The notes below the pieces were generated by a model. That model searched no databases. It was not told the origin of the DNA and saw nothing but the letters and a program-made list of their open reading frames with translations. DNA of 33,487 nt from Candidatus Calescibacterium sp. Lineage in GTDB: Bacteria > DRYD01. Location: the NCBI GenBank assembly GCA_025057615.1, contig JANXBF010000001.1, positions 33,698-67,184 on the forward strand. Reading direction: 5' to 3'. Below are positions 7,150 to 33,463 of the stretch, one piece after another (the stretch's first letter is position 1; the number at the start of each line of letters is the position of its first letter). The position numbers and the translations under genes are program-made.

Positions 7150-7683
7150 TTATATAGCTCTGGCACCTGGGAAACCAAAAGATCCACTGAAAGAACTGAA
7201 ATTGAAATTGAACCCTGCTTGCCCAAACTGATTAAACTGATTACCTTGGTTTTGTTGCTGTAACAAAATCATCAATAACATAATAATCAACATTATTATT
7301 AATTGTTGATTCATACCATTGGGTTGGCAACAACCAGGGTTACCCATTCCAGGAAAACCACCCATACCAGGCATACCAACAGGAAAACCGCAACCAGGAA
7401 GTCCTCCCATACCGGGCATAGAAAAGGGGGAAACAGGATTTTGACCAAACTGACCCAATGGATTAGAAAGCAAACCACCCAAAATGCCACCTATTAAACC
7501 GCCAACCAATCCTCCAATTAAACCTTGCAATAAAGGATTATTAGATATAAATCCATCTTGAATTCCAAAACCTACACCTATACCAAGTGCACCAAATCCC
7601 CCAGCTATACCAAACCCTCCAGCTATACCAATTCCTCCACCTATATTAATTCCTCCACCTATCATACCAATAGTATTAAACAT
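7150..7683 (-). CDS. Glycine-rich low-complexity protein of unknown function
   Basis: The protein has 177 residues in distinct compositional blocks. Residues 1-45 are repeats of the type GGGIGIAGGFGIAGGFG. Residues 50-75 form a perfect glycine zipper (LIGGLVGGLIGGILGGLL). A PGMGG-type block with three cysteines (PGCGF...GCCQ) follows, then a very hydrophobic stretch (LIIMLIIMLLMILL) flanked by glutamine and asparagine. The tail is rich in F, G, S and N. There is no signal peptide and no recognised family. It could be a membrane-associated, self-assembling or bacteriocin-like protein, but this is a guess from composition. A strong AAGGAGG lies 12 bases upstream, and a dedicated terminator follows, so it looks like an independently and perhaps highly expressed gene. 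Met7 is an alternative start (see the leader-peptide finding). Confidence 0.7.
   Translation of the reverse strand: MFNTIGMIGGGINIGGGIGIAGGFGIAGGFGALGIGVGFGIQDGFISNNPLLQGLIGGLVGGLIGGILGGLLSNPLGQFGQNPVSPFSMPGMGGLPGCGFPVGMPGMGGFPGMGNPGCCQPNGMNQQLIIMLIIMLLMILLQQQNQGNQFNQFGQAGFNFNFSSFSGSFGFPGARAI
7603..7668. repeat. 18-bp tandem repeat, about 3.7 copies
   Basis: Successive 18-base units begin at 7603, 7621, 7639 and 7657 (plus strand AGCTATACCAAACCCTCC and close variants). They encode the six-residue glycine repeats at the start of the glycine-rich protein, and point to recent expansion by slippage. Confidence 0.75.
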
Positions 7684-12611: not shown

Positions 12612-13907
12612 TCAAACCTTCAAAGTACTCAAGGTATTGTTCAGATATTTTAGTTGCTCTATTAACTTTGTAACTCTTTTCTCTATTTCATCTTCCGGTA
12701 TTTTGGTTGGATTATTTTCATCAAAATCATATAAACTAAGCTCTATAATTTCGGTATAGACTTGCATAATATCCCTAGAAATATCACTCTTACCTATGAA
12801 ATTCAGTTTATCTATAGAATCCCTAAGATTATTCTCGTTCATTAGTTTGTTTATTTTTTGGACCATATACTGTCCAACTACAACAAGATTTACAAAAATA
12901 TTACTATACTTCTTCATCTTTAAATCTCTATTTATCTCCTCTATTTTACTGTTAAAATTAATTTTAGAATAATCTATTGGATTAATCTTTTCTATTATTT
13001 TCTCAGATGGAGAAGAAAATTTATCAACAGTAATAAACAAATCTTGGGTTTCTTGTTTTTCAACAGTCTGAGTTGAAGTATTGAGTATTTTATATAACCA
13101 GTATAAACCTACACCAACAATTGTAATAACAATAATGGAAGCCAGTAAAATAAGAGCAACGTTAATCCAATTAAACTCACTTGGCTCAGAAGTTGGAGGG
13201 TTTATAGTTGGGGAAGTTGTAGGATTGGTAGTGGTAGGATTATATGGAGGGTAAGTTGTATGGGGTTGTTGATACGGCTGAGGCTGAGGCTGTTGATAAG
13301 GTTGTGGTTGTGGCTGAGGTTGTTGATACGGCTGAGGCTGAGGCTGTTGATAAGGTTGCGGTTGTGGCTGAGGTTGTTGATACGGCTGTGGCTGAGGCTG
13401 CTGATGCGGCTGCGGTTGCGGCTGAGTAACATAACTAGAGATGACTTTTATTGTTATAGATTTAGAATTATCCATAGGAGCAAATTTACTCACTTTCTGG
13501 TTATTATCATCAATACTATACATCAATCCTATGTCCTTAAGAACAAAGTCTCCTTCTTGCCTGGCTTGCAAAACAAAAGTATAAGTTAAATCCATTATAT
13601 CATAATTGTTAGTCTGGGTTATTTTTCTGTCTATAGATCTGGAAATAACATTGAAATTGCTCAAGAATTCTTCTATCTTAAGTAATTTAAAATTATCCTC
13701 AACATACCAAGTGGTATTAGAAGGGCTCTTAAAATTGATATGTATAGTCAGGTAAAAATTTTCACCGAGTCCAACTATATTTTTAGAAGCTTGTGGAGAT
13801 ATCTCAACTATATTACCATAATTATCTGTAAAAGAAGTTAGAAAAAAATAAAGAGATACCAACAATAATAGCCAAAAATTATTCATTTTATTCTTGAAAC
13901 TCATCAT
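12612..13907 (-). CDS. BatD-like secreted/membrane protein with a Pro-Gln repeat linker
   Basis: The order along the 431 residues is: signal peptide or anchor (10-26), and a beta-rich BatD-like domain (about 33-158; VGLGENFYLTIHINF and YTFVLQARQEGDFVL fit the family). A PQPQPYQQ repeat linker (161-215) and a Pro/Thr-rich stretch (217-243) follow. Then come one transmembrane helix (about 248-273) and a cytoplasmic helical domain (about 300-431). BatD proteins normally sit with BatA/BatB and a MoxR ATPase; none is present here. The AAGGAGG overlaps the tmk stop and is close to two consecutive ATGs (13907 and 13904); the second has the better spacing. The BatD assignment is moderate. Confidence 0.68.
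   Translation of the reverse strand: MMSFKNKMNNFWLLLLVSLYFFLTSFTDNYGNIVEISPQASKNIVGLGENFYLTIHINFKSPSNTTWYVEDNFKLLKIEEFLSNFNVISRSIDRKITQTNNYDIMDLTYTFVLQARQEGDFVLKDIGLMYSIDDNNQKVSKFAPMDNSKSITIKVISSYVTQPQPQPHQQPQPQPYQQPQPQPQPYQQPQPQPYQQPQPQPQPYQQPQPQPYQQPHTTYPPYNPTTTNPTTSPTINPPTSEPSEFNWINVALILLASIIVITIVGVGLYWLYKILNTSTQTVEKQETQDLFITVDKFSSPSEKIIEKINPIDYSKINFNSKIEEINRDLKMKKYSNIFVNLVVVGQYMVQKINKLMNENNLRDSIDKLNFIGKSDISRDIMQVYTEIIELSLYDFDENNPTKIPEDEIEKRVTKLIEQLKYLNNTLSTLKV
13264..13425. repeat. Three exact-length tandem copies of a 54-bp unit
   Basis: Units at 13264-13317, 13318-13371 and 13372-13425 are almost identical. The plus strand of each begins GGTTGTTGATACGGCTG. Each encodes 18 residues of the Pro-Gln-Tyr linker in the BatD-like protein. 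The GC-rich units stand out from the AT-rich surroundings. Confidence 0.9.
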
Positions 13908-14594: not shown

Positions 14595-17500
14595 TCAAAT
14601 TGTTACATTTAGTATATTTTGAGTTTCATTGAATAGTTCCTGAATAACAGAAATAGGGTCTTTTTTGTTTTGTTCAACTTCATCTATTTTTTTTAGTAAC
14701 TCTTTTGTTCTTTGTTCGTTTACAAATTCAGAGTAATTTTTGGTTAAAATATCATCTACCATAATTCCTTTCTTAGTGGGTATCAATCTGTTGAATTTTT
14801 CAATGGCATATCCTCTGGTAAAAAGTTTCTGAATTGTGAAGGCGTAAGTAGATGGTCTTCCGATCTCTTTTTCTTTCATCATTTTTATTATCTCAGATTG
14901 TGAATATAACATTGTTGTAGGTTTCTTCAAATTTCTAACCTTAACATTGTATTTTCCTTCTACAAGTCTTTCCGTTTTGTAAGCCAAATAAGGAAATATA
15001 TCAAAAGCTAAACCAGAAGTATCAATGATCCTTTCCTGTTCAAGCTCAGAAACTTTGTCACCTTGTTTGAGAACGAACTTATACTTAGCAATCTTAACAT
15101 AATTATCTTTTGTAAAACATGCTAAAAATCTTCTGTAAATCATTTCATACATTCTCACATCATAACTTGAAAGTTTATCCTGATAGGCTATTTTAATGTC
15201 ATCAGGTTCCAAAGGTCTGGTCACTCTAATAGCCTCATGTGCATGTTGTTCTCCAAACACTCTATATACAAATTCCAGGCCTTTTTTACTATAAATCTCT
15301 TTTGCCACGTTTATTCCTTGATCAGAAATGTAGTAACTATCAGTTCTATGATAAGTTATCAATCCGTTCTCAAATAACCTTTGAAGTATTTGCATGGCTT
15401 CTTGAGAACTAATCTTTAATACATTGTTGGCAAACATTAAAATATCAGAAGTATTAAAAGGAAAAACAGCTATCTTCTTTTCGTACTCATCTATCACTTT
15501 TATTTCTAATTCAGCTTCTCCTTTTATATCAGAGTCAATAAATTGGACTTTAAAATCATCAACTATTGCAAATCTTCTTTTATCATTATACTCTCTATAT
15601 TTTTGTACTATCCAATGTAGAACTGGGCTCTGGACCCTACCAGCAGAAATATTGTGGTCATCCATCTTATCCTTCAGTATTTTACTTAAGGCAAATCCTA
15701 TCCAACGATCTTCTATTCTCCTTATAAGTTGAGCATCAACCAAATTCCTTCTTATTTGTATGGGATTATACAAAGCATTGACAACAGCTTTCTTTGTTAT
15801 CTCATTAAACACAACTCTCTTATAATCCTTTGGCTTGATAAGATTAACAATATCAAAAGAAATTCTTTCTCCCTCACTATCGGGATCAGTAGCAAGTATA
15901 ACACCATCAACCATAAAACTTAGTGTCTTAAGGCTATTTAGATTATCTGTATTATCCACTATAGATGTGGAAGAACAATATATACAAACAGAAGAAATAG
16001 AAGCAAAACTTCTATTACAATCCTTACATCTCCTTATAAAACAGTATAAAGTCTTTACCTCTTTAATATCACCATTCCGTTTGACAATAACATTGTATAT
16101 ATTGTTTTCTTTTTCTATCTGATCAACAGACAACTCAACAACATGTCCCAGAGAAGGAATTATGAGAAGAACTCCAATGGGACTCAACGTTTCAAAAGCT
16201 TGCAGGTTACCTATCTTTATTATACCAGGATTACCAAACATCTGAGCTATCTGTCTAGCTTTAGTAGGACTCTCAACTATCATTAAATACGTTTTAAAAT
16301 CTAAATTGTTATCATAATTGTTATTACTATCTTTCTTTCTACTTAAATCTATATCTTCTCTTGATTTAATAGGATCAAAATCATCAATCTTTATGATTTC
16401 AAAATTATTGAAGTAAGCACTTTTAGACAATGGTTCAAAAAATATTTGATCATCAAATATGAAACTGACACCTTTAGTTATACCATAGGGCGTTATTCTG
16501 GAGCACCTACCAGAAGCCTGAAGATAAGTCTTTATATCCAAAGAATACAAATTACTGTCTTTAATAACAAACATAGAGATAACCTGTGGCTGAACCAAAG
16601 TATCAACCAACTGCTTTATCCTATCCAACGAAACCATCCTTTTCTTAAAAAATATATTCGATAACAATTTTTGTATGGGATACAAATTTCTGTAGTTGTC
16701 CAGATTTTTGAGATCTATCCTCCTTTTAGGAATACCCCAAAAAACAACATATCTAATTTTATAAGGTAAATCCAATCCCCTGACAAGTATGCTGTAAGGC
16801 GAAGAAATACCTATAAGATAACTAATATCCTCATCCTTTATTTGTATCTCTTCATCACTATCATCCAAAAACTCTTCATCATTATCAGAAAATTCTATTT
16901 CTTCATCAATATATGTATCAACAAGATCATCTATTTTTTTTATATTCTTAGAGTTTATAAATTTACTATTTGGTATTTCTTTTTCAAGCACCTGGGCTTC
17001 CTCTTGGGATTGGACAAAAATTATAGCTCCGGGACCCATTAATTGCAAGATCTCTTTCAATTTTCCTAAGTCTTTAGAACCCACAAAAACATCATCTATA
17101 TTTCTAACAAAGTTAATTGAACTACCTATATCAAAATTAAGCAATTTCCTAAAAAGAATACTGTTAATCCCCCTTCTAAGAGTTGCGGAAGATATAACTA
17201 AAACCCCAATGTTAGCTTTAAGAGCCTCAATTTTTTCCAAAAGTAAAGGTGGAGTTTCGAAAGATGGAGTCTTAGCCAAATCAATAATTTCATCATCAAA
17301 CCCCAATAATTTGAGTATTCGCACTGTATTCTTTGAACCTTTTGAAACACTATCTAAATCATCAACAAAAATGTAATCATATTTGCAAGAATTAATTAGA
17401 TCAAATCTGCGAGATAAAAACTGGTTAGTTACAGCAACAAACTTATGTCTCTCATTATATAACCTACTTATCTTCTCCTCCTTAATGGACTTATTCTCAT

Positions 17501-17882
17501 ATGATAAAAAAAACAGGTATTCATCCTCCTCAATTTTACGAGAAACATATTCTTCTATTTTGGGTAAATACTTTTGAAATATTTCCAAAGATTGTTTAAC
17601 AAGTAGTTGTGTAGGAAAAAGCAGTAAACTTCTCCGATTTTTAACAAATGAGTTGTAAAAAGCTAGGAAAATCCCCAAAACAGTCTTACCCGTTCCTGTG
17701 GGAGCAACTATTGAAAAAGAAAAATTAGAAAAAAATCTCTTACAATAACTTCGCTGTATTGATTTTAATTTATAACCAAAACAAAACTCGAAAAACTCCT
17801 CGAATTTCCGTACTTCACTTTCAACATATTCAAAATCAATCAATGAGCTCGGTTTTTCCAAATAACAAACTTCTATATTCAT
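14595..17882 (-). CDS. rgy: Reverse gyrase
   Basis: This ATP-dependent enzyme adds positive supercoils and is the hallmark of life at very high temperature. The 1095 residues join a helicase-like half and a topoisomerase IA half. Helicase motifs are APTGTGKT (60-67), DDLD (174-177), SSAT (231-234) and QASGRCSR (455-462). Topoisomerase motifs are VESPTKAR (536-543) and a zinc finger with C619, C622, C633 and C636. The Toprim DPDSEGE (666-672) and the catalytic Tyr844 in LITYHRTDS follow. The N-terminal zinc finger found in many family members is missing, and an in-frame stop just upstream of the ATG shows this is not a start-site error. An acidic insertion lies at residues 323-352. Confidence 0.96.
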   Translation of the reverse strand: MNIEVCYLEKPSSLIDFEYVESEVRKFEEFFEFCFGYKLKSIQRSYCKRFFSNFSFSIVAPTGTGKTVLGIFLAFYNSFVKNRRSLLLFPTQLLVKQSLEIFQKYLPKIEEYVSRKIEEDEYLFFLSYENKSIKEEKISRLYNERHKFVAVTNQFLSRRFDLINSCKYDYIFVDDLDSVSKGSKNTVRILKLLGFDDEIIDLAKTPSFETPPLLLEKIEALKANIGVLVISSATLRRGINSILFRKLLNFDIGSSINFVRNIDDVFVGSKDLGKLKEILQLMGPGAIIFVQSQEEAQVLEKEIPNSKFINSKNIKKIDDLVDTYIDEEIEFSDNDEEFLDDSDEEIQIKDEDISYLIGISSPYSILVRGLDLPYKIRYVVFWGIPKRRIDLKNLDNYRNLYPIQKLLSNIFFKKRMVSLDRIKQLVDTLVQPQVISMFVIKDSNLYSLDIKTYLQASGRCSRITPYGITKGVSFIFDDQIFFEPLSKSAYFNNFEIIKIDDFDPIKSREDIDLSRKKDSNNNYDNNLDFKTYLMIVESPTKARQIAQMFGNPGIIKIGNLQAFETLSPIGVLLIIPSLGHVVELSVDQIEKENNIYNVIVKRNGDIKEVKTLYCFIRRCKDCNRSFASISSVCIYCSSTSIVDNTDNLNSLKTLSFMVDGVILATDPDSEGERISFDIVNLIKPKDYKRVVFNEITKKAVVNALYNPIQIRRNLVDAQLIRRIEDRWIGFALSKILKDKMDDHNISAGRVQSPVLHWIVQKYREYNDKRRFAIVDDFKVQFIDSDIKGEAELEIKVIDEYEKKIAVFPFNTSDILMFANNVLKISSQEAMQILQRLFENGLITYHRTDSYYISDQGINVAKEIYSKKGLEFVYRVFGEQHAHEAIRVTRPLEPDDIKIAYQDKLSSYDVRMYEMIYRRFLACFTKDNYVKIAKYKFVLKQGDKVSELEQERIIDTSGLAFDIFPYLAYKTERLVEGKYNVKVRNLKKPTTMLYSQSEIIKMMKEKEIGRPSTYAFTIQKLFTRGYAIEKFNRLIPTKKGIMVDDILTKNYSEFVNEQRTKELLKKIDEVEQNKKDPISVIQELFNETQNILNVTI

Positions 17883-29836: not shown

Positions 29837-29912
29837 TACATAAAAAGGATAAAGTGAAAAGGTATATTAATACTATCTATAGGATAATTATTTTGAGAAA
29901 GGAGAAAATCTA

Positions 29913-32390
29913 ATGCAGCCGTACAAAGCTAAAATAGTATATTTTCCCAAGTACCTGGATATTTCAGCAAGAAGAATGTTGTTAGAAAGGAAAGAAAATG
30001 ATGCAAATTTAATAGAAGAAGATTATATATGGACAGATTTATCAAGAATGGATATAAATAGCTTAAGTGAAAACCAATACGCAGCTCTATTCTTGGGAGA
30101 TGAGTCCTATGCAGGCAGTAAAAATTTCATAAAGCTCAATCAGAATATCCAGGATACATTCAACAAACAACATCTTATTCCCACTCATAATATAAAAGGA
30201 GCCTGGAACCTGATAATCAAAATACTTGAAAATTTTGAAAACTATCAATTGAACCTAGTGAATTATAATCCTTTAGAAAATCAACACTTTGAAAAACTAC
30301 TCAACTATTATAAAATCAAACCACAGGGAAGTAAAAAAATATCAATCTTTTTCCTGAACTCCCTAGAAAGTTATAATTATAACATCAATGATATAAAGAA
30401 TATAATTTCAAGATTGAAAGAAGAGTCATTACTAATAATAGCAGACTTTTCAAACATTTTTTCTTTTACAAAATCAGATTTAGATGAAGTTAAAGAACTC
30501 AGTAATCTAGTTGATATAATAGTTATAGACTGCTCATTTGACTTAATGTCAAATACAGGAGCATTGTTAATAACTGATAATTTCAAATACTATGAATATC
30601 TTACAGAATGGGTAGTAGCCTTTGAAGGGCTACATACCTACGGTGGTTTAGCGGGAAGAGATATGGAAATTATAAATCAAGGGTTAGAAGAAGCAAAAAA
30701 CAAAAATTTCTGGGAATACAAAGAAAAATCAATCAATTTTTTATATGAAGAAATAAAGAGAATTACAAATACCATTGAAGGTTTTGAAATCAGCTCCTTA
30801 CACTCAACACATTATTTTTACGTAAAACATAGTATTCATAATATAAATAACCTATTATTCTTAGTAGGCCAAGTAAGAGGGTATAGCAAAGATAATTACA
30901 TTGTTCTGTATTTACCATCAAGGAAATATCAAAAGAGAAACTTGGAGCTATTTGTCAAATCTTTTGAATTGGCAATACAACAAAAAAACAGAAGATATAT
31001 ATCTGATTTTATTGATCCAAGAGATTATATTTCCTATAATTTAAAGGGTATAGAAATAATCAACTTACTACCCTTTGAGGATAGGAAAGAAACCCTAGAA
31101 AAAGCAGGTTATAACACTTTTTTAATACCAGCAGAAAAAGTTTACATAGATTTTTTAACGGATAGTGGAACAAGTAGTATGAGCGACGAACAATGGAGTT
31201 TAGCAATATTCTATGATCAAAAAAGAGCATATAAGTTTTTAGAAGAATCAATAGAAGATATATTTGGTTTCAGGTATTTTCTACCCACTCATCAAGGCAG
31301 AGCTGCAGAGCATATTGTTTCTCAAACAATGATAAAACCTGGACAGTTCGTGATAAATAACATGTATTTTACAACTACAAGGTTCCATCAAGAATATGCT
31401 CAAGGAGTTTTTGTTGATCTAATCATAGAAGAAGCTTATAAACCTGAAGTTCCACACCCATTTAAAGGTAATATAGATGTGGATAAATTAGTAGATTTCA
31501 TAGAGAAAAATGGAGCAAGTAATATAGCTTATGTATGTATCGAAAATAATGTTAACATGGCTGGAGGCCAACCAGTTTCTCTAGAAAACATAAAACAAAT
31601 AAGGAAAATATGTGATTATTATGGTATTCCTATAGTATTAGATGCAACAAGGATAGCTGAAAATGCTTTCTTTATCAAAGAAAGAGAACAGGGATATCAA
31701 AACAAAGACATAAAAAGTATCATAAAAGAGATAATGAGTTTAGCTGATGCTGCAACAATTTCGGCTAAAAAAGATCCACTGACCAATATAAGTGGACTAA
31801 TACTTGTTAGATCACCAGATTTGTTCACAAAAATGAAGAAAATGATAGAGATTTTTGAAGGTGAACATTATAATGGAGGAATGTCATCCAGAGATATAGC
31901 AATGTTAGCGAAGGGAATAATCGAGATGACCGACTTCTATTATCTAAAAAATAGGATAGATCAGGTAAGATACTTAGGAAATCTGTTAAAATCATCAAAT
32001 ATACCAATAGTAGAACCAATAGGTGGACATGCGATATATATTGATGCAAAAAGGTTTTTGCCCCACATAAGTCAAGAAGAGTTTCCTGCCCAGACATTGG
32101 CTGCATACATCTATTTATATGGTGGCGTTAGAACTATGGAAAGAGGAATAGTATCTGCAGGAAGAGATCCCAAAACAGGTAAACATAAATATCCAGAGCT
32201 TGAATTAGTTAGAATAACCATACCAAGAAGAGTTTATACCAATGAACATATGGAATATACAAGTGACACAATACGTGAGGTATTTAGTATAAGAGAAAAA
32301 ATAAGCGGGTTATCAATTTTATATGAGCCACCATTTTTGAGATTCTTCACAATGAGGTTCGAACCAATAAAAAAAACAGCTAATTTATGA
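29913..32390 (+). CDS. Tandem tyrosine phenol-lyase-type beta-eliminating lyase (pseudo-domain fused to catalytic domain)
   Basis: The 825 residues are about twice the length of a normal tryptophanase or tyrosine phenol-lyase (TPL, about 456). Residues 381-825 align end to end with TPL and keep PTHQGR (458-463), N548, DATR (577-580), SAKK with the PLP lysine K620, MERG (R744), R767 and LRFF. R744 matches TPL Arg381, a tyrosine-specificity residue, so TPL is favoured over tryptophanase. Residues 1-370 are a shorter degenerate copy. F209 replaces the PLP lysine and V331 the carboxylate-binding arginine, yet GDESYAGS (62-69) and YGGLAGRDME (243-252) are canonical. A GAAAGGAG site lies at 29897-29904. 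The expected reaction of the active half is cleavage of tyrosine, or a similar beta-substituted amino acid, to pyruvate and ammonia. Confidence 0.87.
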   Translation: MQPYKAKIVYFPKYLDISARRMLLERKENDANLIEEDYIWTDLSRMDINSLSENQYAALFLGDESYAGSKNFIKLNQNIQDTFNKQHLIPTHNIKGAWNLIIKILENFENYQLNLVNYNPLENQHFEKLLNYYKIKPQGSKKISIFFLNSLESYNYNINDIKNIISRLKEESLLIIADFSNIFSFTKSDLDEVKELSNLVDIIVIDCSFDLMSNTGALLITDNFKYYEYLTEWVVAFEGLHTYGGLAGRDMEIINQGLEEAKNKNFWEYKEKSINFLYEEIKRITNTIEGFEISSLHSTHYFYVKHSIHNINNLLFLVGQVRGYSKDNYIVLYLPSRKYQKRNLELFVKSFELAIQQKNRRYISDFIDPRDYISYNLKGIEIINLLPFEDRKETLEKAGYNTFLIPAEKVYIDFLTDSGTSSMSDEQWSLAIFYDQKRAYKFLEESIEDIFGFRYFLPTHQGRAAEHIVSQTMIKPGQFVINNMYFTTTRFHQEYAQGVFVDLIIEEAYKPEVPHPFKGNIDVDKLVDFIEKNGASNIAYVCIENNVNMAGGQPVSLENIKQIRKICDYYGIPIVLDATRIAENAFFIKEREQGYQNKDIKSIIKEIMSLADAATISAKKDPLTNISGLILVRSPDLFTKMKKMIEIFEGEHYNGGMSSRDIAMLAKGIIEMTDFYYLKNRIDQVRYLGNLLKSSNIPIVEPIGGHAIYIDAKRFLPHISQEEFPAQTLAAYIYLYGGVRTMERGIVSAGRDPKTGKHKYPELELVRITIPRRVYTNEHMEYTSDTIREVFSIREKISGLSILYEPPFLRFFTMRFEPIKKTANL

Positions 32391-33463
32391 TAATAGTATT
32401 TGCAAACGAAGAAAAGTGGAAATATGATGATCAATATTTTTATTATCCAGTATGTTTACCTACTTTAAAACTTATAGAAATTCTGTGTAAATATTTTCAA
32501 GAAAAACCTCTGTTTATAATTAATCATGAATCCCAAGAATTAATAAAAAAATTGATAAAGCTATACAATATAAATATCGAATTAGATTTAACAGAAAACA
32601 TAGATTTATCAAAGGATATATCAAAATATAACAAAAATGAAAATTTAGTTCTCATAGATCTTAACTCACCTTTACTATATTATAAAAGAGAAAAAATAAA
32701 GGATAAATTAATAAAAAGTAGAGAACGCAAAGTCATAAATGTAAATTTAATTGATCATAAATTTATGATTGGAAAATCAATAGAATACATTTTCAAAATA
32801 AGGATAATCAAGGATTTTGAGAAACTTTTCAATTTGATAAGAAAGTACTCTTTAGAAAAAGCTAAGAATATTATGTTAGGAAAAAATATTTTTATCTGCC
32901 CATTATCAACTCTGGAAGAAAACAATACAATTTTGGATAATACTTTTATAATAAACTCAGAGATAGGTAAATTCAATAAAATTGGTCCAAACTGCTTTAT
33001 TACGGATTCTCAAATAGGATTTAACAACGTCATTTCTCACAGTATTATCAAGAAAAATCAATTAATAAATGATAACTTTATAGGTCCATTTACTCATCTG
33101 AGAGAAAATAACATAATACACAATTCCAAGATAGGTGCATTTGTTGAGTGTAAAAACATTAAAGTTGATGGATATCTGAAAGCTCCACATTTAGCTTATT
33201 TAGGAGATTTAATAATAGAAGAGAATGTTAATATTGGTGCTGGTGCTGTTTTTGCAAATTACGATGGCAAAAATAAATACACAAGTATAATAAAGAAAAA
33301 CTCGTTTATAGGTTCTAATTCAGTAATAGTATCTCCTAAACAAATTGGTCCAAATTCTTATATAGGAGCTGGAAGTGTTGTGACAAAAGATGTTCACGAA
33401 AATACAATAGTTATTGGTAATCCAGCAAGGGTATATAAAAAATATGAAACTGACAATAAATGA
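32387..33463 (+). CDS. GlmU-like acetyltransferase with degenerate N-terminal domain
   Basis: Residues about 165-350 form a left-handed beta-helix of hexapeptide repeats matching the GlmU C-terminal domain. They include GPFTHLRE, FVECKN, KAPHLAYLGD with the catalytic-type His268, and NVNIGAG followed by NYDGKNK. That domain acetylates glucosamine-1-phosphate from acetyl-CoA. The N-terminal 165 residues occupy the place of the uridyltransferase domain but lack its LAAGxGTRM signature and are about 60 residues short. The C-terminal IVIGNPARVYKKY is more like other sugar acetyltransferases. The ATG overlaps the lyase stop (ATGA) without a separate ribosome site. The substrate is inferred. Confidence 0.8.
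   Translation: MIIVFANEEKWKYDDQYFYYPVCLPTLKLIEILCKYFQEKPLFIINHESQELIKKLIKLYNINIELDLTENIDLSKDISKYNKNENLVLIDLNSPLLYYKREKIKDKLIKSRERKVINVNLIDHKFMIGKSIEYIFKIRIIKDFEKLFNLIRKYSLEKAKNIMLGKNIFICPLSTLEENNTILDNTFIINSEIGKFNKIGPNCFITDSQIGFNNVISHSIIKKNQLINDNFIGPFTHLRENNIIHNSKIGAFVECKNIKVDGYLKAPHLAYLGDLIIEENVNIGAGAVFANYDGKNKYTSIIKKNSFIGSNSVIVSPKQIGPNSYIGAGSVVTKDVHENTIVIGNPARVYKKYETDNK

Follow-up and report, generated by a model that had tools for sequence, protein, structure and literature searches.

A fused gene of two tyrosine phenol-lyase-type halves with reciprocal loss of active-site residues, predicted to form one composite site per chain

Each catalytic dimer of a known tyrosine phenol-lyase (TPL), a homotetramer of single-domain chains, has two equivalent sites, and the question raised by this locus is what active site could be formed by a chain of two unequal TPL-type halves, for which one complete site is predicted. 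The gene lies in the window, the whole 33,487-nucleotide stretch of Candidatus Calescibacterium DNA that was analyzed, and is a single open frame of 825 codons with the halves in tandem (29913-32390, + strand; Table 1). Its fused homologues are two-domain chains of 825 to 900 residues, not the single-domain form of TPL. A sequence-only reading had proposed that each half has decayed where the other is intact. We consider it very probable that the product is a covalent pseudo-heterodimeric TPL in which each chain has a single composite K+/PLP site and carries specificity residues of the TPL type; the packing of the halves, the single site per chain, and the reaction are all matters that we infer from homology.

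Table 1. Coordinates of the fused gene, its parts, and the adjoining gene (window positions)
Feature	Position	Strand	Basis
AGGAG ribosome-binding box	29900..29904	+	8 nt 5' of ATG; sequence
Fused TPL gene, 825 aa + stop	29913..32390	+	full-length homologues G002, G003, G004, G005; L031-L033
N half, residues 1-356, lysine-less TPL-type domain, putative loop donor	29913..30980	+	phmmer to TPL 4e-25; alignment
GDESYAGS loop, residues 62-69: E64 = E69, Y66 = Y71	30096..30119	+	6/6 N halves; alignment
F209 where PLP lysine K257 is expected; Phe, Asn, or Tyr across six N halves	30537..30539	+	alignment, phmmer
FEGLHTYGGLAGRDME loop, residues 237-252: L240 = M288, Y243 = Y291	30621..30668	+	6/6 N halves
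Linker, residues 357-373	30981..31031	+	alignments
C half, residues 374-825, PLP-binding TPL domain	31032..32387	+	sequence search E 1e-153; Foldseek
TDSGT, residues 416-420, with G419 in K+ ligand region	31158..31172	+	alignment; ligand role presumed
FYDQKRAY, residues 433-440: four-residue deletion site, E69/Y71 gone from C half	31209..31232	+	alignment
QGR, residues 461-463, PLP phosphate and R100 site	31293..31301	+	alignment
SAKKD, residues 617-621, with PLP lysine K620	31761..31775	+	sequence search, alignment
FEGEHYNGGMSSRD, residues 648-661: donated loop in degenerate form, Y291 -> N654	31854..31895	+	alignment
R744 = R381, TPL-type specificity residue	32142..32144	+	alignment
R767 = R404, substrate carboxylate	32211..32213	+	alignment
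Next gene, GlmU C-terminal-like (hexapeptide) acyltransferase, overlaps fused-gene stop	32387..33463	+	

Both halves are related to TPL. Residues 374 to 818 match solved TPLs (E 1e-153), and the C half, which shares the fold of TPL (EC 4.1.99.2; PDB 2ez1, 9j3u, and 1c7g), is ~50% identical to them and keeps K257, R100, R217, R381, and R404. The first 367 residues alone match the same TPLs at 4e-25 (phmmer; PDB 9j3u), with the similarity confined to stretches 3-104 and 191-283, which hold both putatively donated loops; this independent alignment to 9j3u also places F209 at the PLP lysine position. In a tree the C half is placed among TPLs with full support. The N half has a long branch (2.9 changes per site), and on this account the tree shows only that it is one old clade, and not where within TPL it belongs.

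The halves were aligned to single-chain TPL/tryptophanase sequences, with residue numbering from Citrobacter freundii TPL, and the mapping agrees with the active-site assignments that the sequence-only reading had made in both halves. The C half keeps 18 of the 18 cis-side positions checked (G52, Q98, G99, R100, F123, T124, N185, D214, T216, R217, S254, K256, K257, N262, R381, R404, F448, and F449), with R463, N548, D577, R580, K620, R744, and R767 equivalent to R100, N185, D214, R217, K257, R381, and R404, respectively. Four residues are deleted from its GDEAYAGS loop, so that E69 and Y71 are missing, and it has E651 and N654 in place of M288 and Y291; the absence of the first loop and the degeneration of the second had been claimed earlier, and both are seen in the alignment. 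All four of these trans residues are present in the N half (E64, Y66, L240, and Y243), Leu being what TPLs from other genomes usually have at position 288, and the trans loops of TPL are matched here in the N half only. We take Glu69 to be a K+ ligand of TPL and Met288 to be among the residues given to the neighbor's site; G419 of the C half presumably lies in the backbone K+ ligand region, as in TPL. The reverse decay proposed for the N half holds in large part: 14 of the 18 cis positions are lost in all six genomes, among them the lysine, QGR, R217, and R404, with F209 replacing K257, V331 replacing R404, and N93-I94-K95 replacing QGR. It does not extend to N185 and D214, the equivalents of which (N149, by alignment, and D178) survive in 6/6 N halves.

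The assignment of the trans residues follows from E. coli tryptophanase, in which the PLP phosphate of one subunit is bonded by Tyr74 and Tyr307 of its neighbor (PMC2770544). Tryptophanase (EC 4.1.99.1) belongs to the same family and has the same trans tyrosines (PMC2770544): counted along an E. coli-type sequence (L059), Tyr74 and Tyr307 fall on the GDEAY and YGG motifs and correspond to TPL Y71 and Y291. The sets of residues lost and kept in the two halves match this published subunit split of TPL/TnaA residues (PMC2770544), as the earlier reading had held.

The fused gene is present in all six genomes of the family that were examined, spanning two genera, and is complete in five of them. 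Three named public records (L031-L033) also carry it, and appear to be the G003, G004, and G005 assemblies themselves. In G006, which represents another family of the phylum (73% complete) and is the only other genome of the phylum searched, no TPL was found. An assembly or frame artefact might be suspected from the metagenome-assembled nature of the named related records and from the splitting of the gene by contig ends in G001, and yet the probability of this is negligible, as it is refuted by the finding of an uninterrupted frame in five genomes that were assembled separately, with identity levels of 94%, 73%, and 53%. The linker is ~35 residues longer in the other genus (G004 and G005; L032:5980-8679, L033:2710-5406). 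We note that in G001 the N-half frame reaches a FLDEV tandem repeat where the contig stops (L011 end, C20; L025 start, C123), and the linker of this genome seems to be a repeat that broke the assembly.

The same residue pattern is seen in 6/6 N halves and in the C halves wherever sequence is present, so that the check for matching losses in homologues, suggested with the original reading, agrees across six genomes and two genera. To gauge complementarity we used a near-invariant set of 85 columns, at which no more than one of 24 single-chain TPL/tryptophanase sequences departs from the rest. Cis and trans retention differ in the N halves (Fisher, p 0.005) and in the C halves (p 0.0001); by strict count six near-invariant positions are lost in all C halves and five of these six are intact in all N halves (p 0.014), and with D68 and Y71 counted as lost, the loop being deleted, seven of eight are intact (hypergeometric p ~0.0015), all of these p-values on residue loss taking no account of the common descent of the six genomes. 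The complementary loss is borne out in both genera, at these seven of eight positions, and the strength of the case, as judged from sequence, is that the reciprocal pattern is kept despite ~57% N-half divergence between genera.

The N half evolves faster than the C half (43% versus 69% identity between genera), and this, together with the near completeness of the C half as a TPL, would fit a C half working as an ordinary homodimer, with the N half a TPL-derived regulatory or structural appendage and its kept loops mere leftovers. We regard this as improbable, as a C-C dimer would be without E69, Y71, and Y291, which are present in 24/24 of the single-chain enzymes aligned, and few parts of the N half are as well conserved across the two genera as its two loops, contrary to what is expected of leftovers. 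Purifying selection acts on the N half, with Ka/Ks between G000 and G003 of ~0.12, compared with ~0.04 for the C half. Its conservation islands (residues 1-15, 46-75, 226-255, and 331-345, the remainder being much freer) give the profile that one would expect of a domain kept for fold, interface, and two donated loops. The double loss is unusual and could hint at a protein that is catalytically dead or moonlighting, but this is very improbable, given that none of the cis residues, K620 included, varies among the five complete C halves and that the Ka/Ks of this half is so low.

In the composite arrangement that we favor, a TPL-family gene would have been duplicated in tandem and then fused, or two genes of the family fused, and the halves would pack as the two subunits of the TPL catalytic dimer. 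The C half would hold PLP on K620 and supply the cis side of the site (QGR, N548, D577, R580, R744, R767, and F811/F812). The N half, of the same or another chain, would lend the GDESYAGS loop, with E64 reaching the K+ site and Y66 acting as acid/base and phosphate contact, as well as the EGLHTYGG loop with L240 and Y243. Site 1 (cis C, trans N) would then be complete and site 2 (cis N, trans C) dead on both sides, the N half surviving as a scaffold and loop donor, and one PLP and one K+ would be expected per chain. Residues 1-15 correspond to the region of tryptophanase that forms the non-catalytic interface (PMC2770544), and a dimer of fused chains, making a pseudo-tetramer, is therefore plausible.

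The likeliest reaction is predicted to be the K+/PLP-dependent conversion of L-tyrosine to phenol, pyruvate, and ammonia. The TPL specificity positions T124, R381, and F448 are filled in the C half by T487, R744, and F811, with F812 counted among the TPL-type specificity residues; tryptophanase, in contrast, has Asp, Val or Ile, and His where the C half has Thr, Arg, and Phe, and residues of its Asp137/Val394/His463 type are absent. A separate single-chain TPL/tryptophanase-family gene with tryptophanase-type specificity residues is present in the same genomes (L002:1489-2835, L028, L029, and L030), and the fused enzyme is therefore probably the tyrosine enzyme of the lineage. The same composite architecture could instead serve another reaction, such as a beta-lyase acting on cysteine, serine, or an aromatic analogue, or the synthetic direction. 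The whole chain scores 702.1 bits against TIGR02618, under the equivalog cut-off of 720.7, the effects of mutating Tyr71 and Arg381 in TPL vary in degree by substrate (PMC3870968), and the separate tryptophanase-like gene (L002) can also be read this way. We hold another reaction to be unlikely, though less so than the other alternatives, in view of the full complement of TPL-type specificity residues and the position of the C half among TPLs in the tree. At the otherwise invariant N262, in the K+ ligand region, the single-chain genes (L002 and L028-L030) encode His, and an altered cation dependence is possible.

Gene neighborhoods give no functional hint, and the neighbors of the fused gene differ between the two genera. 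The order of fused gene followed by acyltransferase gene is common to G003 and G002 but not to G004 or G005, and the acyltransferase is thus not considered part of the mechanism. Upstream of the fused gene in L032 and L033 are dihydrodipicolinate-synthase-like and reductase-like genes, identified by eye. Elsewhere in the window are a 177-aa glycine-rich protein with GIGG-type repeats and without a family match (7150-7683, - strand) and a BatD-like protein whose long linker is made of PQPQPYQQ repeats (12612-13907, - strand).

Structure prediction is consistent with the TPL fold and says little of the pairing of the halves. AlphaFold2 gave a pLDDT of 51 and pTM of 0.42 with an alignment of four fused rows, and 69 and 0.62 once eight TPL/TNA proteins encoded on viral contigs had been added; the loops with Y66 and Y243 fall in low-confidence stretches of these models, in which no interface between halves is readable. 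In a Foldseek comparison with the PDB, the second model matches TPL over about one half-length with TM-scores to the target of 0.85 to 0.89, single-chain targets being unable to reveal a pseudo-dimer. The best match in a viral structure library is G8DFQ7 (867 aa; 8.5e-21 versus 1e-10 for the next), aligned over the whole chain in 846 columns, and with a superposition so loose (rmsd 14.9) that it serves as an analogy only. A protein of this length would fit the 2604-bp gene for coccolithovirus serine palmitoyltransferase (PMC5371807). Among viral contigs we also note nearly identical TPL genes near the ends of many IMG/VR prophage contigs (L041-L052 and L060), which are probably host flank at the integration site, and a divergent single-chain member (L058:1501-2841) with SARKL for SGKKD and DASLLADN for DATRCVEN in the R217 region, which perhaps has another activity.

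How novel is this architecture? The view that nothing similar had been described stands for the TPL/tryptophanase family as searched: no fused or heterodimeric member is described in the open-access literature, and no tandem outside this family of bacteria was found among 290 genomes sampled across the domain. An 836-codon open frame in G245 was rejected as a tandem, being a single tryptophanase-like gene of 481 codons. The view does not stand for the fold class, in which fused serine palmitoyltransferase and GcvP are known. Coccolithovirus serine palmitoyltransferase and eukaryotic SPT1/SPT2 are fold type I PLP enzymes with a lysine-less half (PMC6148460, PMC5371807), and the viral enzyme is described as a natural chimera of SPT2 and lysine-less SPT1, a single-chain heterodimer (PMC6148460). 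It belongs to another subfamily, has the lysine-bearing half first, opposite to the order in the fused TPL, and the passages cited do not describe a reciprocal loss in its active half (PMC6148460, PMC5371807). The glycine decarboxylase P-protein (GcvP, or GcvPA/GcvPB when split) is likewise a fold type I pair of unequal halves, of another subfamily and reaction and not a beta-eliminating lyase. The GcvP halves are fused in some organisms, with a lysine asymmetry. A two-subunit P-protein is on record (PMC6522883), and the genome from which the window comes has a P-protein family gene of 474 codons, which fits the split form. The fused TPL-type chain resembles both systems in having two homologous halves, one without the PLP lysine; the idea of a fused pseudo-heterodimer is already known in the fold class, and the two-sided decay is the distinctive point here.

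The source lineage of the fused gene is a small and poorly known one among bacteria, and the window codes for a reverse-gyrase-like protein with helicase, Toprim, and topoisomerase parts (14595-17882, - strand). Reverse gyrase is usually a sign of a thermophile, and TPL is an industrial L-DOPA catalyst; a single-chain TPL from a reverse-gyrase lineage could be stable. We think it likely that this is the first TPL/tryptophanase-family beta-eliminating lyase known to have become an obligate covalent pseudo-heterodimer with reciprocal loss of active-site parts in both halves and one composite site left per chain, a trait that would be fixed throughout a bacterial family. It would be a clean case of symmetry breaking, from homodimer through duplication and fusion to reciprocal decay, and, for a textbook enzyme, a complementation experiment carried out by nature from both sides, showing which residues each subunit must give. 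With the roles placed on separate halves, each could be mutated alone, which is impossible in a homodimer, and half-of-sites behavior would become directly testable, as would exactly what Tyr71, Tyr291, and the K+ site do.
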